NCBI RefSeq assembly: GCF_000767465.1
Contig: NZ_CP009292.1
Span: 186,001-250,000 of the forward strand
Source of the DNA: Novosphingobium pentaromativorans US6-1
GTDB lineage: Bacteria > Pseudomonadota > Alphaproteobacteria > Sphingomonadales > Sphingomonadaceae
Length of the DNA: 64,000 nucleotides
Reading direction: 5' to 3'
Part shown: positions 26,345 to 46,836 of the stretch, piece by piece
Layout: the number at the start of each line of letters is the position of its first letter
Position numbering within the stretch: position 1 is the stretch's first letter
The notes under the pieces: generated by a model
Database searches by the model: none
The model's input: the letters and a program-made list of their open reading frames with translations, nothing else
What the model was told of the DNA's origin: nothing
Program-made: the position numbers and the translations under genes

Positions 26345-27427
26345 TCAGCTGCCGATGCTCAGGCTGACAAAGGCCAGCGCCGCCAGAAAGCTCGCCAAAG
26401 TGGCGACGATCACCGGTGTCAGCGATCGCCAGCCCAGCTCGATCAGCAGGTCCATGCGCGATCGCATCGCCGTAGCCGTTACGGCAAGAAGCAGCAGGGC
26501 CTTTGATCCGGACAGTGCCGCAGTCTTTGCCGCCTCGGGCAGTGCGACGAGACTGTTGAGGGCAACGACGGCGATGAAGGCAGTGATGAACCACGGAGGG
26601 CTGAAGCGACGCCAGGCCGGGCGGCTTTCCTGTCCGGAGCTGGGCCCCAGCCAGAGGCTTACGAGCATGACGATAGGTGCAAGCAAGGCAACTCGTGCAA
26701 GTTTGACGATCGTAGCATAGGATCCGGCCACGTCTGAGTAGGCATAGCCACCGCCGATCGCTTGAGCGACGTCGTGAATGGACGCCCCGATCAGGAAGCC
26801 GGCCTGCTTGTCGTCGAATCCCATTTGTCCGGCCAGTGCCGGATAGATCGACATGGCAATGGCACTGGCCAGCGATACGCCCACAAGGGTGAGCGCGAAC
26901 TGGGCCTGGCTCAGCCTTTCCTTGCCAATCACCCCGTAGAGCGCGAGAGCCGCGCTGGCGCCGCAAATGGCCGTGGCGCCGCCTGCCAGTATGCCGGCAT
27001 ACCGAGACTGACGGGAAATGCGCGCGCCTGCCAGGCCCGCACTGAAGGCGATGGCCATGATCACGAGCAACGCGGCGAAGGGCTGAATGCCGAGCGCCTC
27101 GATCTGGACGAATGTAATCTGCAGGCCGAGTACGACGATCCCCAGCCGCAGGCAGGTGCGCGAGGCAAAGTCGAGACCGGCGTGCGTATCCTGATCGCGC
27201 GAGATGAAATTGAGGGCCAGTCCGATCAGCAGGCCCATGAGAATGATCGGGAATCCATAATGGTCCGAAAGCCAGGCGGCAGCACCGGCCGCGGCAGAGC
27301 AGGCAAGCAGTCCGGGGATGAGGTGCGAGGGCGCACGCTTGCCCGGCGGCGGGGCATCATCGCCGAGTTGCAGTTCTCCGAACAGGTCGCCAGCATGGGG
27401 TGAAGCCTGCCAGTCCACACCTCTCAT
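26345..27427 (-). CDS. YeiH-type putative sulfate/sulfite exporter
   Basis: A 360-residue membrane protein of the YeiH (UPF0324, putative sulfate exporter) family with about ten helices. Family blocks include IILMGLLIGLALNFISRDQ, TCLRLGIVVLGLQITFVQIE, GGATAICGASAALALYGVIG, GASIHDVAQAIGGGYAYSD, and the C-terminal LLIELGWRSLTPVIVATLAS. AGGAG six bases upstream supports the ATG. It is divergent from an MFS importer, and a 21-bp dyad 17 bases upstream of this ATG recurs in front of the sulfoquinovosidase operon. A monooxygenase pathway releases sulfite from sulfoquinovose, so export of sulfite or derived sulfate is the likely job. Confidence 0.85.
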   Translation of the reverse strand: MRGVDWQASPHAGDLFGELQLGDDAPPPGKRAPSHLIPGLLACSAAAGAAAWLSDHYGFPIILMGLLIGLALNFISRDQDTHAGLDFASRTCLRLGIVVLGLQITFVQIEALGIQPFAALLVIMAIAFSAGLAGARISRQSRYAGILAGGATAICGASAALALYGVIGKERLSQAQFALTLVGVSLASAIAMSIYPALAGQMGFDDKQAGFLIGASIHDVAQAIGGGYAYSDVAGSYATIVKLARVALLAPIVMLVSLWLGPSSGQESRPAWRRFSPPWFITAFIAVVALNSLVALPEAAKTAALSGSKALLLLAVTATAMRSRMDLLIELGWRSLTPVIVATLASFLAALAFVSLSIGS

Positions 27428-27443: not shown

Positions 27444-27464
27444 ATATGTCTAACGGTGTCATAT
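27444..27464. promoter_or_regulatory. candidate LacI-family operator shared with the sulfoquinovose operon
   Basis: The 21-bp imperfect dyad has ends ATATG / CATAT, inner C...G pairs and the core AACGGTGTCA. It is identical at 17 of 21 positions to the element at 37759-37779. It lies 17 bases upstream of the yeiH-like ATG and 73 bases before the MFS start, well placed to repress both divergent promoters. Confidence 0.65.
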
Positions 27465-27536
27465 TTTGCTTTCCTTATCAGGCGCCGGCGCTAAGCTGCA
27501 ACAACAAATCGGCTGGAAGTGCCGGGGACCGGGAGA

Positions 27537-28775
27537 ATGCTGGTGGTATCGCAAGAGGAGATGATGCGCGAAAAGGTGGCGAGCAGGATCGTCGTCCTGT
27601 TGGTCGTGCTCCTTTTCGTGGGCAATGCCCTCAACTACGTCGACAGGCAGGTACTTGCCCTGCTCAAGCCGACGCTCGAAGCCGAATTCGGTTGGACAGA
27701 CACAGACTATGCCCACCTGGGTGCCACCTTCCAGATCGCGGCGGCGGCGGCCCTGTTGGGCGTGGGCTGGTTTGTCGACAGACTCGGCGTCCGCCTTGCC
27801 TACGGCATCGCCATCGCGGTCTGGAGCGCGGCAGGCATGGCCCATGCTCTTGCTGCGAGCGTCCAGCAGTTCGTCGCCGCACGCGTGGTTCTGGCCGTTG
27901 GCGAATCGGTCAGCACCCCGGCTGGGCTTAAGGCCGCGTCGATCTATCTGCCCGCAAGGCAGAGAAACGTCGCCATCGGCCTGATCAATACCGCGCCCAA
28001 CATTGGCGCCATCATCACGCCTTTGCTGATCCCGCCCTTTGCCATCGCCTTCGGCTGGAAGGCGGCCTTCATCGTGACCGGAAGTCTCGGCTTCATCTGG
28101 CTGGCATTCTGGTGGCCGACCATGCGCGGTATCAAGCCGCTCCATCACGTAGCCGAGCGCGCTCCCGTCAGGTGGGGGGAGATGCTGAGTGACCGCAGAA
28201 CCTGGGCAGTGGCCGGCGCCAAGGCCTTCACAGACTGTGTCTGGTGGTTCGTGCTGTTCTGGATGCCCGACTTCTTCAACCGGGCCTTCGGGATGGACCA
28301 GGCCGACCTCGGCTGGCCCATCGCGATCATCTTTCTACTTGCGGCACTTGGCGCGATCACGTCCGGTGGACTCTATCCGATCCTTCTTGGCCGCGGTTAT
28401 TCGGTCAATCGCGCCCGCAAGATGTCGATGCTGTTCTTTGCAGTGACCGTGCTGATCATGCTGTTCGCCCTGCAGACCGACAATCCCTGGCTCGCTGCCG
28501 TGTTCATCGGTTTCGGCCTGTTCGCGCACCAGGGATTTTCGACGAACATCTTTGGCATGGCTGCCGACATTGTGCCCTCGGCACGCATGGCAAGCGTCAT
28601 TGCCGTGGGCGCGGTGGCAGGCAACCTTTCAGGAACGGCGATGATCGAGTTCGCCGGCTGGTCGCTGGATAGCGGCCTGGGTTACGGGCCGATCTTCGCT
28701 ATCTGCAGCGTGGCGTACTTGTGCGCCCTGGCCTTCATTCATCTGATCGTGCCGGATCTCCAGTTGGAGGATTGA
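27537..28775 (+). CDS. MFS transporter of the anion:cation symporter (hexuronate-type) family
   Basis: A 412-residue, twelve-helix MFS protein. The first helix contains VGNALNYVDRQVLALLKPTL, followed by WTDTDYAHLGATFQIAAAAA and DRLGVRLAYGIAIAVW (motif A) and VGESVSTPAGLKAASIYLPA. This is typical of the ACS family (ExuT, GudP, tartrate transporters), which import anionic sugars and sugar acids with protons. Sulfoquinovose is an anionic sugar. The promoter dyad shared with the sulfoquinovosidase operon makes inner-membrane import of sulfoquinovose or its glycerol glycoside the best guess. ATG 27537 has GGGAG close by; ATG 27561/27564 are alternatives. Confidence 0.85.
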   Translation: MLVVSQEEMMREKVASRIVVLLVVLLFVGNALNYVDRQVLALLKPTLEAEFGWTDTDYAHLGATFQIAAAAALLGVGWFVDRLGVRLAYGIAIAVWSAAGMAHALAASVQQFVAARVVLAVGESVSTPAGLKAASIYLPARQRNVAIGLINTAPNIGAIITPLLIPPFAIAFGWKAAFIVTGSLGFIWLAFWWPTMRGIKPLHHVAERAPVRWGEMLSDRRTWAVAGAKAFTDCVWWFVLFWMPDFFNRAFGMDQADLGWPIAIIFLLAALGAITSGGLYPILLGRGYSVNRARKMSMLFFAVTVLIMLFALQTDNPWLAAVFIGFGLFAHQGFSTNIFGMAADIVPSARMASVIAVGAVAGNLSGTAMIEFAGWSLDSGLGYGPIFAICSVAYLCALAFIHLIVPDLQLED

Positions 28776-33341: not shown

Positions 33342-35096
33342 TCAGACCCGGTAGTCCTCGAGAATGGGGCCCAAGGCATCACGTAGCGGATGCAGGCCCG
33401 TCTCGACGGCACGCCACAAGCCGGCCCCGTCGCGATTGATGGGGCGGCGAACCTGCTCGGAACTTGCGGTGCGCACGGCACGGTCGTTTTCGAAAAAGCG
33501 CAGGCAGGCTTCTTCGAAGGGCAGATTCAGCGCGTCGAGCAGGCTGCGGGTCGCTTCCTCCGGGTCGTCCAGCAGGTCCTCGTGGATGACGCGTACGATA
33601 CGACCGGGCATTACGGCATCGAAATGACGCATCAACCGGACGTAATCGGCGTAGTAGTGGCCGATGTCTGCAAGGTCGTAAGAGAAGGCCTGGCCGCTGG
33701 CGTAGTGCTGACGAAAGTTCGAATAACCGCAGTCCAGCGGATGACGCCGGGCATCGACTATACGCGCATTGGGCAGGATGAGGTGGATCAGTCCGGCGTG
33801 GAGCCAGTTGTTCGGTGTCTTGTCGATGAACAGCGCCTTGCCTTCGCGGCGATGGATTTGCGTGCGCTCGAGATAGGTTTCGCCCAGTTCGCGCAGCCGG
33901 TCGGGGGTGAGCGCAGCAATGACTTGCGGATAGCTTCCCTCCTTCCCCAGCTGCGATACCAGAGAGAGAATGTCCGGCAGTTCCATCGTGCCTTCGACCA
34001 TGGAGTGGCTGGATAGGATCTGTTCGATCAGCGTTGAACCGGCGCGGGGCATGCCCAGGACGAATACCGGATCGGGTTGATGGCAACCCTGTCCTTCTCG
34101 CGCGGCGAGGAACGGGCTATCGAAAAGGGCTATGGTGCGATCCACCGCGCTCGAAGTGCGCTGGGCGCGATAGGGAAGCTGCTCGCGGCGCAGGGCATTG
34201 GCCTTCAGGTAATGTTCGAAGCCTTGTTCCGGCCGGCCGCCGTCCTCAAGCGCCTTGGCGAGAGCGAAATGGAGATGATAGCGATCCTCCGTGCTGGCTG
34301 AAGGCTCGGCAAGAGCACCCTGGATCGAGGGGATGTCAGCCTCTTCCAGGCGCACCGTCTTGAGATTGGCGATCGACCACCAGGCTTCGCCATAGGCCGG
34401 GCGCAGTTCCAGCGCGCGTCGATAGGCGGCCACAGCGTCGGCCTGACGACCCACGGTCTTGAGCGCGTGGCCATAGCTTGTCCAGATCCGCGGCTGACGT
34501 TCGCTGCCGGCGCGTGCCAGAACGCTTTCGTATAGGCTGATCGCTTCGGCGAATTCACCAAGCCGTGCAACCACGGCTGCACGCAGGACGCCGTTGCCCG
34601 GACCGTCATCGGTCAGGCGGTCCAGTTCGGCAAGGGCCTCGACTGTCTTGTTCTGGCGATAAAGGGCCATAGCCAGATTGGTGCGAGCAGCAACGAAGGC
34701 TGGGGCGAGCTCAAGCGCCCGGCGCAAAAGCCTTTCCGCATCCTGATAGCGGCCGATCCGACCGGCAACTTCAGCCAGCATCCGGATCGCGGCGACGTCG
34801 AACGGGTTTTCCCGCAGGCGGCCCCGGAGAAGAGGTTCGGCCTGCTCAAGCCTGTTGTGAACCATCGCATGGCCGGCCTGAATCAGGGCCGGGTCAAGCG
34901 TGGAGGCATCGATTGCAGCAAGCTCTTCGGCGCTGGCGCGCTCCTCACTGCCCAGGGCGCGCAAGGCGCGGGCGGCGAGGCGATGGGCTTCCGCGTCATC
35001 CGAATTTCGGGCCAGTAATTGCTCGCAGTTACGAAGAGCCGCGCGTGGATCCTCAGCCAATTCCCTGCGTATGGCGGAATAAGTCGCTGGCGTCAT
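33342..35096 (-). CDS. TPR repeat-containing sulfotransferase family protein
   Basis: A 584-residue protein. Residues ~1-270 are about six to seven tetratricopeptide repeats (e.g. AEPLLRGRLRENPFDVAAIR, AERLLRRALELAPAFVAART, AVAAYRRALELRPAYGEAWW). Residues ~320-580 form a sulfotransferase domain with the 5' PAPS loop PVFVLGMPRAGSTLIEQILS and the 3' element IVDARRHPLDCGYSNF. The family transfers sulfate from PAPS or is a PAPS-fold protein of unknown acceptor. It is common beside TonB receptors in sphingomonads. ATG 35096 is preferred; the extension to 35402 is not family-like. It lies between two TonB receptor genes on the same strand. Confidence 0.9.
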   Translation of the reverse strand: MTPATYSAIRRELAEDPRAALRNCEQLLARNSDDAEAHRLAARALRALGSEERASAEELAAIDASTLDPALIQAGHAMVHNRLEQAEPLLRGRLRENPFDVAAIRMLAEVAGRIGRYQDAERLLRRALELAPAFVAARTNLAMALYRQNKTVEALAELDRLTDDGPGNGVLRAAVVARLGEFAEAISLYESVLARAGSERQPRIWTSYGHALKTVGRQADAVAAYRRALELRPAYGEAWWSIANLKTVRLEEADIPSIQGALAEPSASTEDRYHLHFALAKALEDGGRPEQGFEHYLKANALRREQLPYRAQRTSSAVDRTIALFDSPFLAAREGQGCHQPDPVFVLGMPRAGSTLIEQILSSHSMVEGTMELPDILSLVSQLGKEGSYPQVIAALTPDRLRELGETYLERTQIHRREGKALFIDKTPNNWLHAGLIHLILPNARIVDARRHPLDCGYSNFRQHYASGQAFSYDLADIGHYYADYVRLMRHFDAVMPGRIVRVIHEDLLDDPEEATRSLLDALNLPFEEACLRFFENDRAVRTASSEQVRRPINRDGAGLWRAVETGLHPLRDALGPILEDYRV

Positions 35097-35280
35097 GCGC
35101 GGATCGACACCTCGTCGCGGTTGATTTCGGTTCCGGTCATACAGGACAAGATTTGCAACTGGCAATGACTTGCGCAAGTTCGATGACCTGCAAGCCCGGA
35201 AAGTCAGTCCCGAGTTGGCAAGATCGCATTCGGCTCGCGGCGCAGGATATCGCGAGGAAATCAGTCGGCGCAAAGAAAAT

Positions 35281-35306
35281 GCCCCCTCGCCGCTGCGCGA
35301 GGGGGC
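35281..35306 (-). terminator. intrinsic terminator of the sulfoquinovose-linked TonB receptor gene
   Basis: GCCCCCTCGC and GCGAGGGGGC form a 10-bp perfect stem with a 6-base loop. Read on the minus strand it is followed by ATTTTCTTTG, a T-rich tail. It lies 26 bases beyond the stop at 35332, so it separates this receptor from the TPR-sulfotransferase gene. Confidence 0.8.
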
Positions 35307-35331
35307 ACCGGGGGAGAACCGGCAGGTTGGG

Positions 35332-37644
35332 TTACATGCGCGCTCGCAGGCTGACGCCGAAATAGCGGTCAGCATCGCGCGGGATCTGCAGGCGCTGACC
35401 ATCGGAAACGTTCAGCAGGACGTAGCTTTCATCCGTGATATTGCGGAGGTAGAACGTCAGGCGGTACTTGTCATCGGCATCGGACAGGCCGAGCGAGGCA
35501 TTCCACTGACCGTAGGCGTCAATCGGTCCGGATTCGCCGAGGTCCGAATACTGCTTCGAGACATGGCGATAGTCGGTATTCAAGTAGACGACCATGTTGC
35601 CGACGGGACGCTCGTAATCCGCACCCAGGGTATAGGTGAACTTGGGCGCCAGCGGCAGCCGCGTGCCGTCGCGCGCGTCGGGGGCATTGGTCAGCGGGTT
35701 CGGGTTGAAGCGCTTGACCTTGGCATCGGCATAGGCGGCGCTGGCGCGCAGCGTCAGGCCGGTGACAGGAACGGCCGTGAAGTCTGCCTCGAAGCCCTGG
35801 CTCTTGACTGTGCCGGCATTGGTCAGGTTGGTGACCACTGCGCCGTTCAGCAGCACGAAGTTGTTGGCCTGGAAGCCGTCGTACTGAACGGTGAACCCGG
35901 CAAGGTTGAGCTGGACCTTGTTGTTCAGGAATTGCGACTTGAGACCGACCTCGAAGGCATCGGAAGTCTCTTCGTCGATCGGCACGGCATTGGTCGGTGC
36001 GGTGTGGTTGAAGAAGACGTTGAAGGCCGGGCCCTTGTAGCCGCGCGTGTAGCTGCCGTAGAGCATGATGTCGCGGCTCGGGGTGAACTGCACGACGGCC
36101 TTGCCGGAGAGGTTGCTGTTGGAGCTCGATCCGCTGGAGACGTTGGTGCCGTTACCGCCGCTTGCAATCGTGCCGCCTGCCGGGTTGCCCGAAACGCCGG
36201 GTCCGGTTGCCGGAAGGCCCGTCGTCGCGTTCACGCCGGGTGCGCGAATATGGGTGAAGCTGAGCTCGTCCCAAGTGTAGCGCAGGCCGCCGGTAATCGC
36301 GAACATGTCACTCAGGCGATAGGTTGCCTGCCCGAATACGGCATAGTTCGACGAGTTGACGTCGCTGGCTGAACTTGCGGTCGGGAAGAGGGTATTGACG
36401 GTGTCGTCGAGGTTGCACGGCTGCCCGCCGGTGATGGGATCGACCGGCAAGGTCGAACTGGCGCACGTGATGTCGCGGCGGGTGAAATCCTGCTTGTTGT
36501 CTGAATGCCAGAGGAAACCACCGACCTGGTAGTAGAACGGGCGCGACTGGTCCGAAGCGATGCGCGCCTCGAAGGACATCTGCTGGGTCTTGACCACGCC
36601 ATTGTCGTGAAGCTGGGCAGTGCCGACGATGGCGCGGGGCAGGAAGTCGCCCTCGCGGATCTCCTCGTTCCACCAGTTGCGGTAGCCGGTCACGAAGCTC
36701 AGCGTATGCGTATCGGACAGATCGATGTCACCCGATGCGGTGAAGCTGTACTGCTTGTCACGCGTGCGGGTTACCAGATTGTGGTTTACGTAGCGCTGGT
36801 CTTCGCCCAGTGCGACACCGCCGGGCAGGCCCAGTTCTGCGTCGAGCACCGGACCGCGGCTGGCGCCGGTTACGTCGGCGCAGCAGTCATCGTCGGCATG
36901 GAAGTAGTCGGCAATGAAGCGCAGGCGGGCAATCGAACCGGAATAGTCGACGATGCCGCGAGCGCCCCAGTGCTCGTACCCGTTTACCTTCTTGTTCTTG
37001 CCGCCGTAGACATTGGTGATGTTGCCGTCGTAGGTGCCATAGAATCCGGTGACGCGTGCGCTCCAGTCCTGGCCGAGCGGACCGGAAACGGACGAGCGCA
37101 GGCGGTATTCGTCGCCTTCGTACCATTCGGCCTTGGCTTCGGCCTGGAGCGTGTCGGTACCGCCCTTGGAGACGATGTTGACGAGGCCGGCCGACGCATT
37201 CTTGCCGAACAGCGTGCCTTGCGGGCCGCGAAGGACTTCGAGGCGGTCGGCATCGACGAGGTCCATGAAGGCCTGGCCCGAACGGCTCAGGACCACGCCG
37301 TCGACGACGGTGGAGACACTCGGTTCTGCGGCGATGGAGAAGGTGATCGTGCCGACACCGCGCATGACGATGGCGCTGTTGGCGCTCGTCGTACCCTTGC
37401 GGAAAGTGACAGAGGGAACGATTCGCGTAATGTTTTCAAGGCTGGTGGCCCCGGTCTGCTCGAGCCGGTCGCCCGATACCGCGGAAATGGCAATGGGAAC
37501 GGACTGCGCGTTCTCCTTCACCTTCTGCGCCGTGACGATGATTTCCTCGACTTCCTGTGCAGAGGCAAGAGCGGGTGAAAGCAGCGCCATCGCGCTTGTG
37601 GAAGCGGCCAGCGCCCACGCGAACTTGTGCCTGGAAACGTTCAT
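35332..37644 (-). CDS. TonB-dependent receptor, divergent from the sulfoquinovosidase operon
   Basis: A 770-residue receptor. The signal peptide ends near LSPALASAQ, and the TonB-box-like EVEEIIVTAQKVKENAQSVP follows. The plug domain has ITRIVPSVTFRKGTTSANSA, VMRGVG and LEVLRGPQGTLFGKNASAGL. The barrel closes with YFGVSLRARM, with an atypical C-terminal Met. GGGAGGGGAG precedes ATG 37644. It shares a 195-bp promoter region with the sulfoquinovosidase operon, including the 21-bp dyad at 37759. The probable ligand is sulfoquinovosyl glycerol or an oligomeric or lipid-derived form of it; this is inferred from position only. Confidence 0.93.
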   Translation of the reverse strand: MNVSRHKFAWALAASTSAMALLSPALASAQEVEEIIVTAQKVKENAQSVPIAISAVSGDRLEQTGATSLENITRIVPSVTFRKGTTSANSAIVMRGVGTITFSIAAEPSVSTVVDGVVLSRSGQAFMDLVDADRLEVLRGPQGTLFGKNASAGLVNIVSKGGTDTLQAEAKAEWYEGDEYRLRSSVSGPLGQDWSARVTGFYGTYDGNITNVYGGKNKKVNGYEHWGARGIVDYSGSIARLRFIADYFHADDDCCADVTGASRGPVLDAELGLPGGVALGEDQRYVNHNLVTRTRDKQYSFTASGDIDLSDTHTLSFVTGYRNWWNEEIREGDFLPRAIVGTAQLHDNGVVKTQQMSFEARIASDQSRPFYYQVGGFLWHSDNKQDFTRRDITCASSTLPVDPITGGQPCNLDDTVNTLFPTASSASDVNSSNYAVFGQATYRLSDMFAITGGLRYTWDELSFTHIRAPGVNATTGLPATGPGVSGNPAGGTIASGGNGTNVSSGSSSNSNLSGKAVVQFTPSRDIMLYGSYTRGYKGPAFNVFFNHTAPTNAVPIDEETSDAFEVGLKSQFLNNKVQLNLAGFTVQYDGFQANNFVLLNGAVVTNLTNAGTVKSQGFEADFTAVPVTGLTLRASAAYADAKVKRFNPNPLTNAPDARDGTRLPLAPKFTYTLGADYERPVGNMVVYLNTDYRHVSKQYSDLGESGPIDAYGQWNASLGLSDADDKYRLTFYLRNITDESYVLLNVSDGQRLQIPRDADRYFGVSLRARM

Positions 37645-37758
37645 AGTAACTCCCCTCCCAATACGGGCTCGACTTGGTTTTCATTCGCTTCCGTGCTCCC
37701 TTGCGGAGCCTGTCGGAAACGGGCCTTCATTGATGCTTGCATTGCCAGCGTGTCCTCG

Positions 37759-37779
37759 GTATGTCAAGCGGTGTCATAC
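37759..37779. promoter_or_regulatory. candidate operator between TonB receptor and sulfoquinovosidase
   Basis: A 21-bp imperfect dyad with ends GTATG / CATAC, inner C-A...T-G pairs and the core GCGGTGTCA. It differs at only four positions from the element at 27444-27464 and lies 60 bases before the sulfoquinovosidase TTG and 114 bases from the receptor ATG. The LacI-type protein encoded at 39846 is the obvious candidate to bind it. Confidence 0.7.
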
Positions 37780-37839
37780 GCAAATGCAGAAGCACACAAA
37801 GTGCCGCATTGGGCAGGGCGACATTAGAGAGGAAATGCA

Positions 37840-39849
37840 TTGGAAGTGCGTATTCTGGACGCTGGAGACGGTTTCGACCTCGAGTATCGGGGGCGCGTGG
37901 TCCTGCGTCACAGAGAATCATGTCCAGCGTTGGACATTGCGCGCGGCAAGTCCTGTGTGGAGATGTATCGAGGCAACTTCTCGATTTCCGACGAGCCATC
38001 GGGTCGCATAATTCCTGCAAAGTGGCGCAGGGCCGATGGAGGTATCGAGTTCCTTGACGCCGGTTCGCCCTGCGCGGTGCTGCGCATCGATGGGACGCGT
38101 TTGCAGTTCGATGTGCTGCTCCCCGGGTATGATCGCATTACCGTCAGGTTCCATGCCGAACCTGAAGAGGTGGTCTGGGGCGGCGGCGAGCAGATGAGCT
38201 ATCTGGCGCTCAACGGTCGCAGCTTTCCGATGTGGACCAGCGAACCGGGCGTGGGGCGCGACAAGACAACCGAACTGACCCGCATCATGGATGAGCAGGG
38301 GATGGCCGGCGGAGACTATTGGAATACCAATTACCCGCAACCCACCTTCCTTACCTCTCGGTGGCTTGCCGTGCATCTCGATGCTTCCTGCTACAGCGTG
38401 CTCGATTTCTCGGACCCCGCCGCGCACCGCGTCGAGGTGTGGAGCGGATGCGCCCGCTTCGAACTGTTTGCCTCCAGCGGGCCCCTGGAGCTGGTTTCGG
38501 CACTATCGGCGAGGTTCGGCCGCCAGCCGGCCTTGCCCGAATGGGCCATCGGCGGCGCGATTGTCGGCCTCAAGTCAGGTGCGAGCAGTTTTGAACGGCT
38601 GGAACGCTTCATCGATGCCGGCGCGGCCGTGTCAGGCCTGTGGTGCGAGGACTGGGCCGGCATTCGCGAGACAAGCTTCGGGCGCCGCCTGTTCTGGGAC
38701 TGGGTCGGGTCTGAGCGCAGTGAGGCCCGATATCCCGATCTCACGGCGTCCATCGCGACGCTTGCCAAGCGGGGCATTCGTTTCCTCGCTTATGCCAATC
38801 CTTACCTGGCGGTCGACGGGACGCTCTATGAGGAAGCCCTGGCAGGCGGTCACTTCTGCCTGCGTCAGGACAGTGACGAGGTCTATCTCGTCGACTTCGG
38901 CGAGTTCGACTGCGGTGTCCTCGATTTCACCCGGGAAGAAACGCGCGACTGGTTCGCCGAACGTATCCTTGGGCGCGAAATGCTGGATATCGGAATTTCC
39001 GGATGGATGGCGGATTTCGGCGAGTACCTGCCGACCGATCTGCGCCTCGCCGACGGATCCGACGCCATGGAAGCCCATAATCGCTGGCCGGTCCTGTGGG
39101 CGCAGGTCAATGCGAAAGCCTTGGCTTCGCGCGGTAGGACAGGCGATGCGCTCTTCTTCATGCGGGCCGGCTTTTCCGGGGTGCAAGCCTATTGTCCGCT
39201 GTTGTGGGCCGGAGACCAGTGCGTCGATTTCACGCGCCATGACGGCATCGGGACGGTCGTGACTGCCGCGCTTTCTTCGGGGCTGGTCGGCAATGCCTAC
39301 AGCCACTCCGATTGTGGCGGCTACACATCGCTCCACGGCAATGTCCGCAGCGTCGAGCTGATGCAGCGTTGGTGCGAGCTGTCGGCCTTTGCGCCGGTCA
39401 TGCGCAGCCACGAGGGCAATCGCCCCGATGACAACCTCCAGTTCGATTCCTCATCTGAATTGCTGGATTGCTTTGCGCGCTGGAGCCGGGTCCACGCGCA
39501 TCTGGCACCCTACGTCCGCCACTTGTGCCACGAGGCGCAAGGGGCGGGTCTTCCTGCCCAGAGGCCATTGTTCCTGCATTATCCCGATGAACCTGCATTG
39601 TTTACGGTGCAGGATCAGTTCCTCTACGGTGCCGACATGGTCGTGGCACCCGTCATCGAAGAGGGAGCCGAGGCGCGCCGGGTGATCCTGCCGGGCAGCG
39701 GTGTCTGGAGACATTGCTGGACGGGCAAGGTTTACGCACCCGGAGTTGCCGAGGTTCCCGCTCCGATAGGGCAGCCGCCTGTGTTCTATCGGCCGGACAG
39801 TGCCTTCGCGCAGCTGTTTGCCGGACTGGAAGGGGTGTTGCGGGGATGA
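37840..39849 (+). CDS. smoI: GH31 sulfoquinovosidase (SmoI/YihQ type)
   Basis: A 669-residue GH31 glycosidase. The family nucleophile is Asp392 in GWMADFGEYLPTD and the acid/base Asp459 in WAGDQCVDF. The residues that bind the sulfonate in characterised sulfoquinovosidases are all in place: Lys245 (GLKSG), Glu270 (CEDW), Arg283 and Trp286 (GRRLFWDW), and Tyr495 (DCGGYTS). This is the K-E-R-W-Y variant known from the Agrobacterium enzyme, as opposed to Q-Q-R-W-Y of E. coli YihQ. It hydrolyses alpha-sulfoquinovosides such as sulfoquinovosyl glycerol to sulfoquinovose and glycerol. The start is TTG with AGAGAGGA upstream. No signal peptide is seen, so it is cytoplasmic. Its stop overlaps the LacI gene (ATGA). 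Confidence 0.92.
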   Translation: MEVRILDAGDGFDLEYRGRVVLRHRESCPALDIARGKSCVEMYRGNFSISDEPSGRIIPAKWRRADGGIEFLDAGSPCAVLRIDGTRLQFDVLLPGYDRITVRFHAEPEEVVWGGGEQMSYLALNGRSFPMWTSEPGVGRDKTTELTRIMDEQGMAGGDYWNTNYPQPTFLTSRWLAVHLDASCYSVLDFSDPAAHRVEVWSGCARFELFASSGPLELVSALSARFGRQPALPEWAIGGAIVGLKSGASSFERLERFIDAGAAVSGLWCEDWAGIRETSFGRRLFWDWVGSERSEARYPDLTASIATLAKRGIRFLAYANPYLAVDGTLYEEALAGGHFCLRQDSDEVYLVDFGEFDCGVLDFTREETRDWFAERILGREMLDIGISGWMADFGEYLPTDLRLADGSDAMEAHNRWPVLWAQVNAKALASRGRTGDALFFMRAGFSGVQAYCPLLWAGDQCVDFTRHDGIGTVVTAALSSGLVGNAYSHSDCGGYTSLHGNVRSVELMQRWCELSAFAPVMRSHEGNRPDDNLQFDSSSELLDCFARWSRVHAHLAPYVRHLCHEAQGAGLPAQRPLFLHYPDEPALFTVQDQFLYGADMVVAPVIEEGAEARRVILPGSGVWRHCWTGKVYAPGVAEVPAPIGQPPVFYRPDSAFAQLFAGLEGVLRG

Positions 39850-40859
39850 GTGAGCGGGCGAATATCAGGGACGTGGCAGCCATGGCCGGTGTGGCGGTGA
39901 AGACGGTCAGCCGCGTGCTCAACGGGCATCCCTACGTCAGCGCGGATACGCGTGCGCGGGTCGAGGAGGCCATGCAGAAGCTCGATTTTCGCCCGAGCGT
40001 TGCCGCCCGCATCCTGTCCGGATCGAAATCCAACCAGATCGCCCTGATCTACGACAACCACAGCCCTTTCTACATGTTCCAGATCCAGACCGGATGCTGG
40101 GAACAGTGCAAGCAGCACAACATCCGCCTGCTTGCCCAGCCGGTCGACGTGACCGATCCGACCGTTGGCGAACAGGTGCGCGGTCTTGTGACCGAGACGC
40201 ATGTCGACGGGATCATCCTGTCCTCGCCAGTCACCGACTGCGAACCGGTGCTGCGCGCACTCGAGGCGCTCGACCTGCCTTTCGTGCGGATCTCGCCGGG
40301 TACCAACCATGCGCTCACCAGCTCGGTGTTCATGGATGACACGCAGGCCGCAGATGACATGACGACCTACCTGATCAACCAGGGCCATCGCCGTATCGGT
40401 TTCATAAAGGGACACCAAAGCCACATGGCGTCCGAAGATCGCCTCTTCGGCTATCGCCGGGCACTTGACCGGGTCGGCATCCAGTTCGAACCTTCGCTCG
40501 TCTTCGAAGGCGAGTTCGATTTCGAAAGCGGCGTGCGGGCGGCGCAGTACCTGCTCGACCTGCCCGAAGTGCCGACCGCTATCTTCGCGTCGAACGACGA
40601 CATGGCCGCCGGAGTCCTGGCCGAAGCGCATACCCGCGGGATCGAGATTCCGGCGCAGCTGTCGGTGACCGGCTTCGACGATACGACCCTGGCCCGCACG
40701 GTATGGCCGCCGCTCACCACCATTCACCAGCCGATGGCGGAGCTGGCCCAGACCGCCACCGAGATCCTGATCGCCGGAAACGAGATCACCCACCGCCGCC
40801 TGCCCCATTCCCTTATCGAGCGCGCATCCGTCGCGCCGCCTCTCAGGAAGACCATATGA
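39846..40859 (+). CDS. LacI family regulator of the sulfoquinovose operon
   Basis: A 337-residue LacI/GalR regulator. The helix-turn-helix and hinge occupy residues ~1-60 (NIRDVAAMAGVAVKTVSRVL, TRARVEEAMQKLDFRPSVAA). The periplasmic-binding-like effector domain spans ~65-330 (SNQIALIYDNHSPFYMFQIQ, DDTQAADDMTTYLINQGHRR, VTGFDDTTLARTVWPPLTTI). It is embedded in the operon, overlapping the sulfoquinovosidase and the aldo/keto reductase by ATGA on both sides, so its own level follows the operon. Sulfoquinovose or a pathway intermediate is the expected inducer. Its predicted sites are the two 21-bp dyads at 27444 and 37759. Confidence 0.93.
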   Translation: MSERANIRDVAAMAGVAVKTVSRVLNGHPYVSADTRARVEEAMQKLDFRPSVAARILSGSKSNQIALIYDNHSPFYMFQIQTGCWEQCKQHNIRLLAQPVDVTDPTVGEQVRGLVTETHVDGIILSSPVTDCEPVLRALEALDLPFVRISPGTNHALTSSVFMDDTQAADDMTTYLINQGHRRIGFIKGHQSHMASEDRLFGYRRALDRVGIQFEPSLVFEGEFDFESGVRAAQYLLDLPEVPTAIFASNDDMAAGVLAEAHTRGIEIPAQLSVTGFDDTTLARTVWPPLTTIHQPMAELAQTATEILIAGNEITHRRLPHSLIERASVAPPLRKTI

Positions 40860-41770
40860 GCCAATTGCCTGCCGCCCCTGCCGTCCGAACTCTGGGTGCC
40901 AGCGGCATCGAAGTGTCCTCGATCGCGTGGGGCATGTGGCGCCTTGCAGAGGGTGGGCGCACCGTCGATGAAGCTGCCCGTCTCGTGAACACGGCTCTCG
41001 ATGCCGGGATCACCCTGCTCGATACTGCCGATATCTACGGTTTCGACGGAGTGGCCGGGTTCGGCGATGCAGAGGCGCTGTTGGGCGAAGTGCTGGCCCG
41101 GGATTCCTCGCTGCGCCCGCGCATGGTGCTGGCAACCAAGGGCGGCATCTGCCCGCCGCTCCCTTACGATCAGAGCACCGCCTATCTCAACGAGGCCATC
41201 GATGCATCGCTGCGCCGCCTGAAGGTCGAGCAAATCGACCTCTGGCAGGTCCATCGTCCCGACATCCTGACCCACCCGCAGGAAGTGGCGCGCGCGCTGG
41301 AGGATGCCGTTGCGGCAGGCAAGATCCGCACGCTGGGCGTCTCGAACTTCACCATCCACCAGATTGCCGCGCTGGATTCGTTCCTTGGTACCAGGCTGGT
41401 GTCCACCCAGCCCGAGATCAGCCCCCTGCGTATCGACTGCTTCGAGAATGGCGAACTCGATCAGGCGATGATGATGGGCCTGCTCCCGATGGCATGGTCG
41501 CCGCTGGGCGGCGGACGCCTCGCCAATCCGCAGAGCGCGCGTGACAGGGCGGTTGCCGCGGCGCTTGGCGCGGTGGCCGATGCCCATGGCGTATCCAGTA
41601 CGGTTGCGGCCTACAGTTGGCTCATGGCGCATCCGGCAGGCATCGTCCCGATTATCGGGTCGCAGCAGGCCGAGCGGATCGTCGAAGGAACGGCGGCGCT
41701 CAAAGTCCGCTGGACCAGGCAGGAGTGGTACGGCGTTCTGGTCGCGGCCCGGGGAGTGCCATTGCCCTGA
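40856..41770 (+). CDS. smoB: aldo/keto reductase, 6-oxo-glucose reductase (SmoB type)
   Basis: A 304-residue AKR with the complete catalytic tetrad: Asp and Tyr in LDTADIYG, Lys in VLATKGG and His in WQVHRPD. NADP-binding features near the end are VPIIGSQQAERI. In the sulfo-SMO pathway the SmoB reductase turns 6-oxo-glucose, the product of desulfonation, into glucose. The assignment rests on the operon with a K-E-R-W-Y sulfoquinovosidase and an SsuD-like enzyme; the sequence alone says only AKR. ATG 40856 overlaps the LacI stop. Confidence 0.85.
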   Translation: MSQLPAAPAVRTLGASGIEVSSIAWGMWRLAEGGRTVDEAARLVNTALDAGITLLDTADIYGFDGVAGFGDAEALLGEVLARDSSLRPRMVLATKGGICPPLPYDQSTAYLNEAIDASLRRLKVEQIDLWQVHRPDILTHPQEVARALEDAVAAGKIRTLGVSNFTIHQIAALDSFLGTRLVSTQPEISPLRIDCFENGELDQAMMMGLLPMAWSPLGGGRLANPQSARDRAVAAALGAVADAHGVSSTVAAYSWLMAHPAGIVPIIGSQQAERIVEGTAALKVRWTRQEWYGVLVAARGVPLP

Positions 41771-41833
41771 GCCAGGAGTTCCGCACCTGCGGAGCTGAAC
41801 GAGAGTAACAGTAACTATTGCTGGACATGCAAA

Positions 41834-41870
41834 CGTGCGCCCGGACCGGGTGACCCGGCAACCGCGTACG
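41834..41870 (+). ncRNA. structured mRNA leader upstream of the flavin monooxygenase gene
   Basis: CGTGCGC (41834-41840) pairs with GCGTACG (41864-41870, one G-U). Inside it CCGGG and CCCGG (41846-41850, 41854-41858) form a second stem capped by TGA. The internal loop reads CCGGA on one side and CAACC on the other. It lies 26 bases before the monooxygenase start in a 126-base gap within an otherwise overlapping operon. It may be a sulfur-related cis-regulatory RNA, an attenuator, or an mRNA-processing element; no family is claimed. Confidence 0.5.
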
Positions 41871-41896
41871 CCTGATTGATGTGAGAGGAGATCGAA

Positions 41897-42985
41897 ATGT
41901 CAGACCGGAAATGTGAAATCGCGTGGTTCTCCGCATTGTGCGACGACGATTACGAATTCCTCGGGGTTCCCGATCCCTATCTCCAGTCGAGCTGGGAGCA
42001 TTGCCGCAATATCGTGATGCGCGCCGAGGAAGGCGGTTTCGACAATATCCTTTTGCCATCGGGCTACCAGCTCGGGCTCGATACCACGGCTTGTGCCGCT
42101 GCGGTGGCGACGCAGGTGCGCCGCATGAAATTGCTCTGGGCCACCCGCATCGGTGAGGACTGGCCGCCCCAGCTTGCGCGCCGCATCGCAACGCTCGACC
42201 GCATCCTCGGCCCGAATGCCTCGGGCACCGGCGGCCGCCTCAACGTCAACATCATCTCCTCCGACATGCCCGGCGAAAAGCTGGAAAGTGCGCGCCGTTA
42301 TGCCCGCGCGACCGAGGTCATGAAGATCGTGCGTACGCTCCTCGATGGCGAGCACCTCGATCACGAGGGCGAGTTCTACAAGCTCCAGCTCGACCCGCCG
42401 CGCATCGGCACTATCTCTGGCAAATGTCCCGCGTTCTACTTCGGGGGATTGAGCGAGGATGCGCGCGAATGCGCTGCCGAAGGCTGCGACGTCTATCTCA
42501 TGTGGCCCGATACGATGGACAAGGTGCGCGAAACCATCGCCGACATGAAAGCGCGTGCTGCGCGATTTGGCCGTAGTCTCAAGTTCGGATACCGTGTCCA
42601 CGTCATCGTCCGCGAAACCGAAGAGGAGGCCCGCCACTATGCCGACCGCCTGTTGTCGAAGCTGGATGACGAAGCGGGCAAGGCCATTCGCGAAAAATCG
42701 CTCGATGCGAAGAACTACGGTGTCCAGCGCCAGGCGGAACTGCGCAGCGCCGCAGGGGGAGATGGCTTCGTCGAGGACAACCTGTGGACCGGCATCGGGC
42801 GCGCCCGCTCGGGTTGCGGCGCCGCGATCGTCGGCACGCCCGATCAGGTTCTCGCCAAACTTCGCGCCTATCAGGACGAAGGGATCGAGGCGTTCATCCT
42901 ATCCGGCTATCCCCATGCGCAGGAGGCCGACCTGTTTGCGCGCCATGTCCTGCCGCATATCCAGCACGGTCCGCTCGAAGCCTGA
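41897..42985 (+). CDS. smoC: LLM flavin-dependent sulfoquinovose monooxygenase (SmoC type)
   Basis: A 362-residue bacterial-luciferase-like monooxygenase of the SsuD branch. It starts IAWFSALCDDDYEFLGVPDP and has SDMPGEKLESARRYARATEV. FGYRVHVIVRE carries the Arg-x-His pair of SsuD, and IGRARSGCGAAIVGTPDQV the C-terminal mobile-loop arginine. The reaction is FMNH2 plus O2 plus sulfoquinovose to 6-oxo-glucose and sulfite. The AGGAG site seven bases upstream is strong. A flavin reductase (SmoA) is needed and is not encoded nearby, so one must be supplied from elsewhere. Methane/alkane-sulfonate substrates are the alternative, but context favours sulfoquinovose. Confidence 0.88.
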   Translation: MSDRKCEIAWFSALCDDDYEFLGVPDPYLQSSWEHCRNIVMRAEEGGFDNILLPSGYQLGLDTTACAAAVATQVRRMKLLWATRIGEDWPPQLARRIATLDRILGPNASGTGGRLNVNIISSDMPGEKLESARRYARATEVMKIVRTLLDGEHLDHEGEFYKLQLDPPRIGTISGKCPAFYFGGLSEDARECAAEGCDVYLMWPDTMDKVRETIADMKARAARFGRSLKFGYRVHVIVRETEEEARHYADRLLSKLDDEAGKAIREKSLDAKNYGVQRQAELRSAAGGDGFVEDNLWTGIGRARSGCGAAIVGTPDQVLAKLRAYQDEGIEAFILSGYPHAQEADLFARHVLPHIQHGPLEA

Positions 42986-43003
42986 CAGAAGGAAGCCACC
43001 GAG

Positions 43004-44491
43004 GTGAGCGAAGAGCTCTTCGACATTGCCGTGATCGGCGGCGGCGTGAACGGTTGCGGCATCGCACGCGATGCCGCGGGCCGCGGTGCGCGGGTCCTGC
43101 TGCTGGAAGCGCGCGACCTGGCAAGCGGAACGTCTTCTGCATCGACCAAGCTCATCCACGGCGGCCTGCGCTATCTTGAGCATTACGAGTTCGGCCTCGT
43201 CCGTGAATCGCTCAGCGAACGCGAACGCCTCTGGGCGATTGCGCCGCATATCATCTGGCCGCTGCGCTTCATCCTGCCGCATGTGAAGGGGCTGCGGCCC
43301 CGCTGGCTGTTGCGCCTGGGCCTGTTCGTCTATGACCATCTCGGTGGCCGCAAGCGCCTTCCGGCGACGCGGTCGGTCGATCTCGCCAGACATCCCGGCG
43401 GCAGGCCGCTTAAGGACGAATTCACCCACGCCTATGTCTACTCCGATTGCTGGGTGGACGATGCGCGCCTCGTTGTCCTCAATGCGCGCGATGCGGCGGA
43501 TCACGGCGCCGAGGTGCACACGGGTTCGCGGGTCGAGGCGCTGACCCGCGAGGCGGAGGGCTGGCGTATCGAGGCAGGCGGCAAGAGCTTCCACGCGCGG
43601 GCAGTCGTCAATGCAGCAGGGCCTGCGGTCCTCAAGCTCCTGGGGCAGGCCGGTGAACAGTCCGAACGGCGCATGCGCCTCGTGCGCGGCTCGCACATCG
43701 TCGTTCCGCGCAAATTCGAGCATGAATTCGCCTATTTCTTCCAGCTTCCCGACGGGCGGATCTTCTTCGCCATCCCTTACGAGCAAGACTTCACGCTGAT
43801 CGGCACGACCGATCGCGACCATCATGGCAGCCTTGAGGACGTCCGGGCGAGCGATGAGGAAATCGCCTACTTGTGCGAGGGGGCGAGCCACTACTTTCGC
43901 GAACCGGTGACCCCCGGCGATGTGGTGTGGACCTATTCGGGTGTGCGGCCGCTCATCGACGACGGCTCAGGCAAGCCGGAAGCGGCGACGCGCGGCTACA
44001 CGCTGGAACTGACCGACGAGGATGAGGGGGCGCCGCTGCTCTCGGTCATGGGCGGCAAGATCACCACGTACCGGCATCTGGCGCAGGAAGCCGTCGATCT
44101 GCTGTGCCACCGCTTGCCGCAGCTTGCCCACAAGCACTGGACCGACAAGGCGCCGCTGCCCGGCGGCAATTTCTCCGCCGATGAATTGCCCTCAATGTTT
44201 GAACACTATGCATCGCGCTATCCGTTCCTGGAGCCGGGATGGCTGCACCGCCTGCTGCGCAATTACGGGACCTTGATCTCGGACATTTTCGGCAATGCCG
44301 CAGCGCTGCCGGAATGCGGCATTCACTTCGGAAACGGATTGACCGAATGCGAGGTGCGATACCTCGTTCAGCGCGAGTGGTGCCGCAGCGCGGAGGATTT
44401 GCTGTGGCGCCGGACCAAGCTGGGCCTGAGAATGAACGCGCAGCAAGTCGATGAGCTGCAGAATTACCTTGCGAAACTGACGCCTGCTTGA
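43004..44491 (+). CDS. glpD: glycerol-3-phosphate dehydrogenase (FAD, aerobic)
   Basis: A 495-residue GlpD. The N-terminal FAD motif is DIAVIGGGVNGCGIARDAAG, followed by the family signature SGTSSASTKLIHGGLRYLEH. Substrate-domain blocks FLIPYEQDFTLIGTTD-like (here FAIPYEQDFTLIGTTDRDH) and YSGVRPLIDD are followed by the C-terminal cap with EVRYLVQREWCRSAEDLLWR and RTKLGLRMN. It oxidises glycerol-3-phosphate to DHAP and passes electrons to quinone at the membrane. The start is GTG with AAGGAAG upstream, 18 bases after smoC. With glpK behind it, glycerol released by the sulfoquinovosidase can enter glycolysis. Confidence 0.95.
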   Translation: MSEELFDIAVIGGGVNGCGIARDAAGRGARVLLLEARDLASGTSSASTKLIHGGLRYLEHYEFGLVRESLSERERLWAIAPHIIWPLRFILPHVKGLRPRWLLRLGLFVYDHLGGRKRLPATRSVDLARHPGGRPLKDEFTHAYVYSDCWVDDARLVVLNARDAADHGAEVHTGSRVEALTREAEGWRIEAGGKSFHARAVVNAAGPAVLKLLGQAGEQSERRMRLVRGSHIVVPRKFEHEFAYFFQLPDGRIFFAIPYEQDFTLIGTTDRDHHGSLEDVRASDEEIAYLCEGASHYFREPVTPGDVVWTYSGVRPLIDDGSGKPEAATRGYTLELTDEDEGAPLLSVMGGKITTYRHLAQEAVDLLCHRLPQLAHKHWTDKAPLPGGNFSADELPSMFEHYASRYPFLEPGWLHRLLRNYGTLISDIFGNAAALPECGIHFGNGLTECEVRYLVQREWCRSAEDLLWRRTKLGLRMNAQQVDELQNYLAKLTPA

Positions 44492-44565
44492 GGCTGGATT
44501 GCGCTTGCCATCCAGGGTTGGGGCGGGCGCAGACGATCACGGATTGAATCTTAGGGAGAGATACG

Positions 44566-46044
44566 GTGCAAGAGCGCCCCATTCTGGTTCTCGATGAAGG
44601 AACGACTTCGACCAGAGCCATATTGTACTCTGCCGAGGGCAGCATTCTGGGCGTGTCCCAGTCGGAACTGACGCAGCATTATCCTGCGCCCGGCTACGTT
44701 GAGCACGATGCGGACGAAATCTGGGAAAAGACGCTCGCCTGCGCGCGGGAAATGGTCGCGAGGGCAGGCGGCGCGGATCGCATCTCTGCCATCGGTATTA
44801 CCAACCAGCGCGAAACCGTTGTTGCCTGGGACCGCCAGAGCGGCAAGCCGATCACCCCCGCCATCGTCTGGCAGGACCGCCGCACGGCGGACCGCTGCCA
44901 GCAATTGCGGGAAGCGGGCCATGAACCGCTGATCGGTGCGCGGACCGGCCTGATGCTCGATCCCTATTTTTCGGCAACGAAGATGAGCTGGGTTCTCGAA
45001 AACGTGCCGGCGGCGCGCGAGCTCGGGGACAGGCTGGCTTTCGGAACTGTCGAGAGCTGGCTGGTCTGGAAGCTCACCGCAGGGCTGCATATCACCGACG
45101 CCAGCAATGCCAGCCGGACGATGCTGATGCCGCTGGAAGGCGCGGGCTGGGATGACGAGCTGCTCGCGCTTCACGGCGTCCCGCGCGCCAGCCTGCCCGA
45201 GATCGTCGACAATGCCGGACAATTCGAGCGGACGAGCCCGGAACTGTTCGGTGGATCGATTGCCATATGCGGCCTTGCCGGAGATCAGCAAGCTGCAACG
45301 ATCGGTCAGAATTGCCTCTCACCCGGGGACGTCAAGGCCACGCTGGGAACAGGCGCTTTCGTTCTGGCGAACACGGGAACCTCGCCGAGGTTGTCCAGTC
45401 ACAGGCTGGTGAGCACCGTGCTGGCGCAGATCGGCGGAGAGCGCAGCTACGCGCTGGAAGGCTCCGTCTTCGTCGCCGGCAGCCTGGTCAAATGGCTGCG
45501 CGACGAACTGTGCATGGTCGGAACTGCCTGCGAAACCGAAAGTCTTGCCCGCTCGATTGCGGACAGCGGCGGCGTGTGCATTTTGCCGGCCCTGTCGGGT
45601 CTCGGCGCCCCGCACTGGCGCGCCCAAGCGCGCGGAGTCATTGCGGGACTGACCCATGGCACCGGGCGAGCGCACATCGTTCGCGCTGCGCTGGAAGCCA
45701 TGGCCCATCAGATGCATGACCTGAAAGTCGCCTTCGATGGTGACGGCGCGGCATGGCTGAACCTGCGTCTCGACGGCGGTATGAGTGCGAACGACTGGAT
45801 CGCCCAGGACCTTGCCGACATCCTTGATCTCGAGGTCGAACGACCGCTCGATGTCGAGACGACTGCCTTGGGTGCCGCCATGCTGGCAAGCGTGGGCTGC
45901 GGTATCTATGGCTCGCTTGAAGATGCGGCGAGGATGCGGCCCGAGGTCATGGTGTTCCGGCCGGCGATGGACTCTGCGATGCGTCGCGCCCGCCTTCACT
46001 TGTGGCATAAGGTGCTGGCCTCCGAACTGGGCAAGGGTGCGTAA
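44566..46044 (+). CDS. glpK: glycerol kinase
   Basis: A 492-residue FGGY-family kinase. The N-terminal phosphate loop is LDEGTTSTRAILYSAEG, with ITNQRETVVAWDRQSGKPI, AIVWQDRRTADRC, and the C-terminal ATP-binding LRLDGGMSANDWIAQDLADI. These are glycerol-kinase-specific. It phosphorylates glycerol with ATP. The GTG start at 44566 is preceded by AGGGAGAG, 74 bases after glpD. No glpF facilitator is adjacent, which suits glycerol generated inside the cell by glycoside cleavage. Confidence 0.96.
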   Translation: MQERPILVLDEGTTSTRAILYSAEGSILGVSQSELTQHYPAPGYVEHDADEIWEKTLACAREMVARAGGADRISAIGITNQRETVVAWDRQSGKPITPAIVWQDRRTADRCQQLREAGHEPLIGARTGLMLDPYFSATKMSWVLENVPAARELGDRLAFGTVESWLVWKLTAGLHITDASNASRTMLMPLEGAGWDDELLALHGVPRASLPEIVDNAGQFERTSPELFGGSIAICGLAGDQQAATIGQNCLSPGDVKATLGTGAFVLANTGTSPRLSSHRLVSTVLAQIGGERSYALEGSVFVAGSLVKWLRDELCMVGTACETESLARSIADSGGVCILPALSGLGAPHWRAQARGVIAGLTHGTGRAHIVRAALEAMAHQMHDLKVAFDGDGAAWLNLRLDGGMSANDWIAQDLADILDLEVERPLDVETTALGAAMLASVGCGIYGSLEDAARMRPEVMVFRPAMDSAMRRARLHLWHKVLASELGKGA

Positions 46045-46161
46045 GGGGGTAAGGGCGAGAAGCCGGGCAAGGACCACCCCTGCGGTAGAATTGACAAGAC
46101 TACTGCAAGGGTGAAGTCTCTTCCCAGCGGCAAAAGCCGCGCAAAATGCGGGAGAAACGGC

Positions 46162-46836
46162 ATGACCCTGCAGGCCGCAGAGGCGCCCGACCTGGGTGCT
46201 GCGAAGATCGGCGCGATTGCGCACCTTTATCGCGGGGAAGTGTATCGTTCGGCTGTCTGGCGAACGCGGCTCGATACGACTACCAACTGGTCGGTCGTTA
46301 CGCTCGGGATTGCACTTTCGATAACGTTTGCCTCGCCGGATGCTTCGCCTTTGCCGCTGCTTCTGGCAGGCATCCTGATCCTGTTCTTTCTGTTGCTCGA
46401 GGCGCGGCGCTATCGCTATTTCAACGTCTGGCGCGCCCGTTGCCGCTGGATGGAAACGCACTTCTTCGCAAGCTTGCTCAGTGACGATGAGGAATGTCAC
46501 GGACCTGGCTGGCAAGAGACGCTCGCCCGCGATTACCTTCGTCCGCGCTACCATATCCCGCTGCAGGTCGCGATCGGCCGGCGCATCCGGCGCAATTACT
46601 TCTGGATCCTGCTGATCCAGACAACTGCCTTTGTCAGCAAGATCGTCGTCCATCCCAGCCCGATCGAGCATGTGTCCCAGCTTGCGCAGCGCTCGGCGAT
46701 CGGTCCGGTACCAGGCGAACTCGTGCTCGCGCTAGGTGCGCTCTATTGTCTCGTCTGGGGGTGTGTTGCGGTCTGGAGCTGGCGCGACGACAAGCGGCGC
46801 GCGGCAAACCGCGAAGATCACGTCGGAATGGGGTAA
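46162..46836 (+). CDS. DUF2270 membrane protein
   Basis: A 224-residue protein with about four membrane helices. The DUF2270 core is seen as IAHLYRGEVYRSAVWRTRLD, TTNWSVVTLGIALSITFAS, LLLEARRYRYFNVWRARCRW, METHFFASLL and RDYLRPRYHIPLQVAIGRRI, RRNYFWILLIQTTAFVSKI. Function is unknown; the conserved Arg-rich cytosolic loop suggests an interaction surface. GGGAG seven bases upstream supports ATG 46162. It follows glpK by 118 bases and may or may not be on the same transcript. Confidence 0.85.
   Translation: MTLQAAEAPDLGAAKIGAIAHLYRGEVYRSAVWRTRLDTTTNWSVVTLGIALSITFASPDASPLPLLLAGILILFFLLLEARRYRYFNVWRARCRWMETHFFASLLSDDEECHGPGWQETLARDYLRPRYHIPLQVAIGRRIRRNYFWILLIQTTAFVSKIVVHPSPIEHVSQLAQRSAIGPVPGELVLALGALYCLVWGCVAVWSWRDDKRRAANREDHVGMG

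Follow-up and report, generated by a model that had tools for sequence, protein, structure and literature searches.

A probable LacI-controlled island for sulfoquinovosyl glycerol and sulfoquinovose utilisation in Novosphingobium pentaromativorans US6-1

The locus described here is a six-gene operon at 37840-46044 of a 64,000-nucleotide stretch (the window) from Novosphingobium pentaromativorans US6-1, together with its neighbouring uptake genes and a predicted LacI operator. Its gene content resembles the sulfo-SMO cluster of Agrobacterium tumefaciens for the use of sulfoquinovose (SQ), which was reportedly described by Sharma et al. in 2022 and is said to comprise SmoI, SmoB, SmoC, a LacI-type regulator, SmoA and an ABC importer with SmoF; we take this importer to be SmoEFGH. 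On this description of the Agrobacterium cluster, SmoI, SmoB, SmoC and the LacI-type regulator are common to both loci, whereas SmoA and the ABC importer are found there and a TonB receptor, an MFS carrier and a GlpD-GlpK arm are found here.

A second comparison comes from the same genus. The sulfo-ASMO pathway of Novosphingobium aromaticivorans DSM 12444 (Liu et al. 2021, as cited in the available parts of PMC9594981 and PMC12890257) has the same enzyme set, a YihQ-type sulfoquinovosidase (SQase), SquD and SquF, and likewise no clustered SsuE. These two sources and PMC13372026, in the excerpts available, describe the sulfo-SMO/sulfo-ASMO pathway for Novosphingobium. The pathway and its presence in the genus are therefore already published, and the novelty relative to the known cluster is lower than the initial annotation had supposed.

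Two further systems share parts of the arrangement. The GH188 SqgA sulfo-SMO clusters, for which the accessible text of PMC10755693 names Sphingomonas sp. Leaf17 among its examples, have the same downstream aldo/keto reductase (AKR) and SmoC in sphingomonads, but they use an NAD-dependent SQase, in contrast to the GH31 enzyme here. The sulfo-SFT cluster of Eubacterium rectale resembles the present locus in being an SQ cluster with a glycerol kinase, for which use of the glycerol from sulfoquinovosyl glycerol (SQGro) has been proposed; a glycerol kinase in such a cluster is thus not a new idea. It differs in following a transaldolase pathway without desulfonation, and no GlpD is mentioned in the part of PMC11968277 available.

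What kind of locus, then, is present in strain US6-1? The sequence makes it highly likely that this is a LacI-controlled island of the sulfo-SMO (sulfo-ASMO) kind, by which SQGro, the head group of plant sulfolipid, and SQ would be used; this pathway assignment is well supported by the closest solved relatives, the conserved residues and the gene neighbourhood. To the published pathway, the locus adds its complete gene set and a DNA site that seems to link the genes as a common switch. A limited literature search found no earlier description of the sphingomonad operator, the co-regulated MFS/YeiH unit or the GlpD-GlpK arm.

The operon and its enzymes

Six intact ORFs (open reading frames) on the plus strand encode, in order, the GH31 SQase, a LacI regulator, an AKR, a SmoC-type flavin monooxygenase, GlpD and GlpK (Table 1). 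The identities, order and tight packing given by the initial annotation are borne out by the ORFs and by Pfam and NCBIfam matches; its claim of a fused glpD-glpK is ruled out, these being separate neighbouring ORFs with a 74-bp gap. The SQase and LacI genes, and the LacI and AKR genes, overlap by 7 bp each (39843-39849 and 40853-40859), while gaps of 126 bp, the largest, and 18 bp precede SmoC and GlpD. The LacI and AKR starts were taken as 39843 and 40853, as the longer listed ORFs (from 39714 and 40703) enter the upstream gene.

The GH31 protein scores 870 bits against NF007746 (cut-off 553). Among the best 60 of 68 matches in the PDB, 5ohy (808 bits) and 5ohs (806 bits), both deposited as YihQ, rank highest, followed by four more SQase-like chains at about 600-660 bits; other GH31 chains reach at most 131 bits. 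We take 5ohy and 5ohs to be A. tumefaciens SmoI. Chain position 455 is D in 5ohy and N in 5ohs, which identifies it as the acid/base, and the aligned residue of the query is D459. In the alignment D392 is at the nucleophile position, and R283 and W286 belong to the presumed pocket for the sulfonate; these four residues are taken to have catalytic or sulfonate-binding roles. The gateway enzyme expected of a sulfo-SMO or sulfo-ASMO locus, a sulfoquinovosidase with sulfonate-binding residues, is therefore present, and it has no second match in the genome.

The closest solved relatives of the monooxygenase (PF00296, luciferase-like monooxygenase) are 7olf and 7oh2, presumably both SmoC. Its residues R233, H235, R304 and Y338 are invariant across 12 sphingomonad sequences and, we assume, correspond to R226, H228, R297 and Y331 of SsuD. 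The AKR (PF00248) is closest to 7bbz, followed by 7bby (176 bits), which we take to be SmoB. The LacI protein matches PF00356 and PF13377, and GlpD and GlpK exceed the cut-offs of NF009906 (728 bits against 352) and NF000756 (572 bits against 498). The SmoB and SmoC homologues are adjacent, well inside the distance of 10 ORFs used for co-localisation in the available part of PMC13372026.

The arrangement recurs among relatives. The contig scan covered the best 80 of at least 549 relatives, so the 114 unique SmoC loci, that of the window included, lean to close relatives; many of their contigs are incomplete, and N. aromaticivorans DSM 12444 is absent from the relatives listed. The four-gene core keeps its order and strand in 83 of the 114 loci and all six genes keep their order in 17, which argues against a chance arrangement and answers the suggestion of the initial annotation that the six-gene order be sought in other sphingomonads. 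A GH31 SQase-like gene occurs in 89 loci (at least 57% identical to the window SQase in 86) and a GH188-like gene in 17; no locus has both and eight have neither. The same division is found among 35 relatives laid out gene by gene, with a GH31 SQase in 18, a GFO/IDH/MocA protein in 15 and neither in two. The best PDB matches of the GFO/IDH/MocA (GH188-like) protein are 8qc3 and 8qc2 (364 bits), which are SqgA of GH188 according to the accessible text of PMC10755693. The gene identities, residues and synteny can be read directly from these comparisons.

Table 1. Positions of the operon, the predicted operators and the associated uptake and export genes in the window
Feature	Position	Strand	Basis
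GH31 sulfoquinovosidase, SmoI/YihQ type	37840..39849	+	Best PDB 5ohy/5ohs; residues D392, D459, R283, W286
LacI-family regulator, predicted binder of the 19-bp site	39843..40859	+	Family domains, recognition helix
AKR, SmoB/SquF type, putatively 6-dehydroglucose to glucose	40853..41770	+	Best PDB 7bbz, 178 bits
Putative FMNH2-dependent SQ monooxygenase, SmoC/SquD type	41897..42985	+	369 bits to 7olf, 363 bits to 7oh2
GlpD	43004..44491	+	NF009906; one other genome match, weak (28%)
GlpK	44566..46044	+	NF000756; sole genome match
Predicted LacI operator TATGTCAAGCGGTGTCATA	37760..37778	.	Between TonB receptor and SQase, exact
Second predicted operator TATGTCTAACGGTGTCATA	27445..27463	.	Between YeiH-like gene and MFS, two mismatches
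TonB-dependent receptor, divergent from operon	35332..37644	-	Pfam; SQase neighbour in 84 of 114 loci
MFS carrier, probable inner-membrane uptake	27519..28775	+	Pfam, neighbourhood, predicted second site
YeiH-like (PF03601) membrane protein, possible sulfite/sulfate exporter	26345..27427	-	Pfam; TIGR00698 under cut-off

A predicted operator common to two promoter regions

A 19-bp candidate operator, TATGTCAAGCGGTGTCATA, was found from k-mers common to the upstream regions of 86 SQase genes; palindrome scoring of the intergenic region gave nothing useful. At least 13 of the 19 positions are matched upstream of 82 of these 86 genes, a few duplicates included. The two-mismatch copy in the window compares with an expectation of 0.01. 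Across 126 loci (duplicates included), there are 119 matches with up to three mismatches, 83 at SQase/TonB and 36 beside MFS or YeiH genes.

A relaxed core, TGTCNNNCGGTGTCA, is descriptive, because it was chosen after the site variants in the 126 loci had been seen. It has 144 matches in the 114 deduplicated loci (2.13 Mb), compared with 0.25 expected in random sequence. When sites are assigned by gene starts within 450 bp, 75 belong to SQase/TonB, 30 to MFS/YeiH, 24 to YeiH, 11 to MFS and one to GlpD/MFS. The remaining three (L156, L158 and L127) have no start nearby; each is located just past an MFS gene, at its 3' end.

The site also follows the regulator. Where the recognition helix of LacI has VK before TVSR or SVSR, the core is present in 79 of 89 loci, compared with 0 of 9 for other helices (two loci duplicated), in which the best LacI match may be a different LacI. 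Ten VK loci lack the strict core: four (L035, its duplicate L152, L038 and L040) have a one-base variant, and in the other six the sequence begins inside or past the SQase gene. Across species, the site is retained at the predicted target promoters and is linked to the type of recognition helix. Its distribution across the 114 loci and in Novosphingobium sp. PP1Y predicts one LacI regulon joining the operon and the MFS/YeiH unit. In PP1Y a single megaplasmid carries these two units about 158 kb apart and the site is present at both, at the MFS/YeiH unit in exactly the form found in the window (checked after the relaxed core was chosen).

The functional unit is larger than the span 37840-46044 first assigned to it, extending to about 26345. 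The SQase and TonB receptor genes are divergent in 82 of the loci in which they adjoin, and the receptor is a probable route for outer-membrane uptake of SQ or SQGro. The MFS gene and the divergent YeiH-like gene lie about 9 kb from the operon. MFS and PF03601 genes recur next to SQase/TonB, where they are neighbours 63 times, and a frequent order is YeiH, MFS, TonB, SQase, LacI, AKR, SmoC, then GlpD and GlpK in some loci. The absence of an ABC transporter noted at the outset holds in part: none, of the Agrobacterium type or otherwise, is found among the 23 window ORFs that were scanned with Pfam, a subset of the window's ORFs, but genes for transport are present in the divergent TonB receptor and the MFS carrier with its predicted operator. 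Among the loci with MFS and YeiH genes on one strand, L100 and L105 have a more remote MFS relative (about 39-40%) that points the same way as the TonB receptor gene and is perhaps transcribed from the TonB promoter.

Three genes at 28815-35402, located between the MFS gene and that of the first TonB receptor and encoding a GGDEF protein, a second TonB receptor and a TPR-sulfotransferase, were rejected as pathway members; they have no site nearby and few matches beside SmoC in relatives (30% for the second TonB receptor in L034 and in L132, a duplicate of L034; 93% for the TPR gene in the N. mathurense locus L079). In PP1Y, the GGDEF and second TonB receptor genes remain with the distant MFS/YeiH unit. 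A protein with an MPAB/rubber-oxygenase domain (PF09995) is encoded close to the island, at 22990-24012.

Alternative explanations and the supply of cofactors

Could the neighbours be together by chance, with the monooxygenase acting on another sulfonate in the manner of SsuD or MsuD and the GH31 enzyme being an ordinary alpha-glucosidase? This is very improbable. The monooxygenase does belong to the SsuD superfamily (TIGR03565, 243 bits, under the 518 cut-off), the PDB records 7olf and 7oh2 carry the labels methanesulfonate sulfonatase (7olf) and alkanesulfonate monooxygenase, and NF007746 is named alpha-glucosidase. However, its scores against 7olf and 7oh2 are nearly twice that against 7jv3 (208 bits) and about twice that against SsuD (178 bits), the SQase residues are present in the GH31 protein, and 106 of the 114 SmoC loci have a GH31 SQase-like or GH188-like gene. 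It is also unlikely, if less so, that the substrate of the MFS and YeiH proteins is a different one and that another regulator uses the common site. The three intervening genes, an MFS orientation that differs among loci (36 of the 63 MFS/YeiH pairs are divergent as in the window, 27 are on the same strand) and a top MFS family score for a D-galactonate transporter, far under its cut-off, would fit such a view. Against it, 141 of the 144 core sites precede SQase/TonB, MFS or YeiH starts, and the distant unit of PP1Y keeps the site, which is missing from one unlinked MFS region (L169) and one unlinked YeiH region (L170) on other plasmids.

The alternative with the most weight, although still rather unlikely, is that glpD and glpK belong to glycerol metabolism in general, happen to be located next to the SQ genes and stand outside the SQ response. 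The genome has no other clear copy of either gene, and the two may therefore serve general glycerol use; no copy of the site directly precedes them. Among 149 genomes of the family, GlpD (E 1e-40) occurs in 121 and GlpK (E 1e-60) in 126. A SmoC match (E <=0.001) occurs in 72 of the 149 and a close SmoC (at least 70% identity) in 38; 23 of these 38 have no GlpD within 15 kb of SmoC. On the other hand, the 15 that do compare with 0.41 expected under random placement (GlpK is within 15 kb in seven of the 38). GlpD directly follows SmoC in 34 of the 114 loci, accompanied by GlpK in 17 and with GlpK immediately after it in nine of these, and lies on the far opposite flank in 26. The excess over random placement and the different flanks argue for repeated recruitment of GlpD/GlpK to SQ loci. 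Two GlpD matches are listed in seven of the 15 genomes with a linked GlpD, which suggests that a separate SQ-island copy is kept in some genomes, although the second match in G007 may be an assembly duplicate and the linked copy of G021 is only 39% identical. The use proposed for the E. rectale glycerol kinase (PMC11968277, in its available part) also favours a glycerol arm that belongs to the SQ response.

Several further observations weigh against a single SQ island under one LacI regulator. GlpK falls under one of its two curated cut-offs (TIGR01311, 574.5 vs 590.35) and the YeiH-like protein is under that of TIGR00698 (117 bits against 232.6). A promoter scan of 37600-46200 found no sigma-70-like promoter, and the dyad symmetry of the 19-bp site is only partial. 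Searched across the genome with at most two mismatches, the 15-bp core has eight matches, one of them exact, against five for the reversed control; the second site at 27445 therefore rests on its conservation. In 24 loci only the YeiH start has this second site, and control of the MFS gene by it is then not obvious. Finally, on a plasmid of Novosphingobium sp. EMRT-2, no LacI is annotated within 27 kb around SmoC and AKR, whose neighbours are the genes for a LysR regulator and a phytanoyl-CoA dioxygenase-like protein (L167:11058-14080). The same plasmid has an alpha-glucosidase gene of SQase length about 6 kb away and a four-mismatch copy of the site before the AKR gene.

Cofactor supply belongs among these points as well. 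Contrary to the initial suggestion that no other sugar enzyme is needed, reduced flavin and a glucokinase are required, and neither a flavin reductase nor a glucokinase was found in the window. The window is located on contig C2 (757 kb; C2:186001-250000) of the 5.46-Mb genome, and C2 has no match to PF01613 or PF03358; the flavin-reductase candidates (two PF01613, three PF03358) are all on contig C1, and glucokinase (PF02685) matches only there. The window also lacks SmoA/SsuE, a clustered flavin reductase that is common, though not required, in sulfo-SMO clusters, and the FMN (flavin mononucleotide) reductase and RibB of relatives' SQ clusters. Among 116 SmoC loci, 35 (including one pair of duplicates) contain an FMN reductase gene (PF03358), which in 32 is accompanied by a gene for DHBP synthase (RibB); the usual place is downstream of GlpD or immediately behind SmoC. 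This genome contains only distant matches to that reductase (at most 32%). SmoC must therefore borrow reduced flavin. In the relatives, the FMN reductase, usually with the RibB of riboflavin synthesis, resembles a flavin-supply cassette beside the flavin-dependent SmoC (L031:11762-12951 and similar loci). A precedent exists in N. aromaticivorans, for which the available part of PMC9594981 presumes reduced flavin from other reductases and counts clusters without SsuE as sulfo-SMO.

Proposed pathway and place among the sphingomonads

How would the island work? By homology, the TonB receptor would carry the glycoside over the outer membrane and the MFS carrier over the inner membrane. The GH31 enzyme would cleave SQGro to SQ and glycerol. 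SmoC would convert SQ to sulfite and 6-dehydroglucose, using O2 and reduced flavin supplied by a reductase encoded elsewhere, and the AKR would reduce the 6-dehydroglucose to glucose. GlpK and GlpD would turn the glycerol into dihydroxyacetone phosphate, and sulfite or sulfate may leave the cell through the YeiH-like protein. LacI would repress both divergent promoters through the common 19-bp operator until SQ or its glycoside is present. In this scheme the gene identities and the site distribution are observed, and the substrates, the direction of transport, repression and the inducer are proposed.

The SmoC of US6-1 is 99.4% identical to the copy on the PP1Y megaplasmid and 98% identical to that of N. 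mathurense. From the likeness to the PP1Y copy, C2 is most likely a secondary replicon. Among the matches listed, SmoC from Rhizobium plasmids (H7, H9-H12) is 71-73% identical, compared with 48-52% in Ruegeria, Roseivivax and similar genera, which hints at a transfer of SmoC between rhizobia and sphingomonads.

A broader proposal can be put forward tentatively. The use of whole SQGro by sphingomonads might form one LacI regulon with two promoter regions, comprising TonB/MFS uptake, the SQase, oxidative desulfonation, sulfur export and the repeatedly recruited GlpK and GlpD, so that breakdown of the sulfolipid head group would also control glycerol catabolism. For uptake, sulfur export, the glycerol arm and regulation in sphingomonads there are now specific candidate genes and a DNA site, which are directly testable. 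The predicted site may also help to locate the regulon elsewhere, even in genomes where its parts are unlinked.

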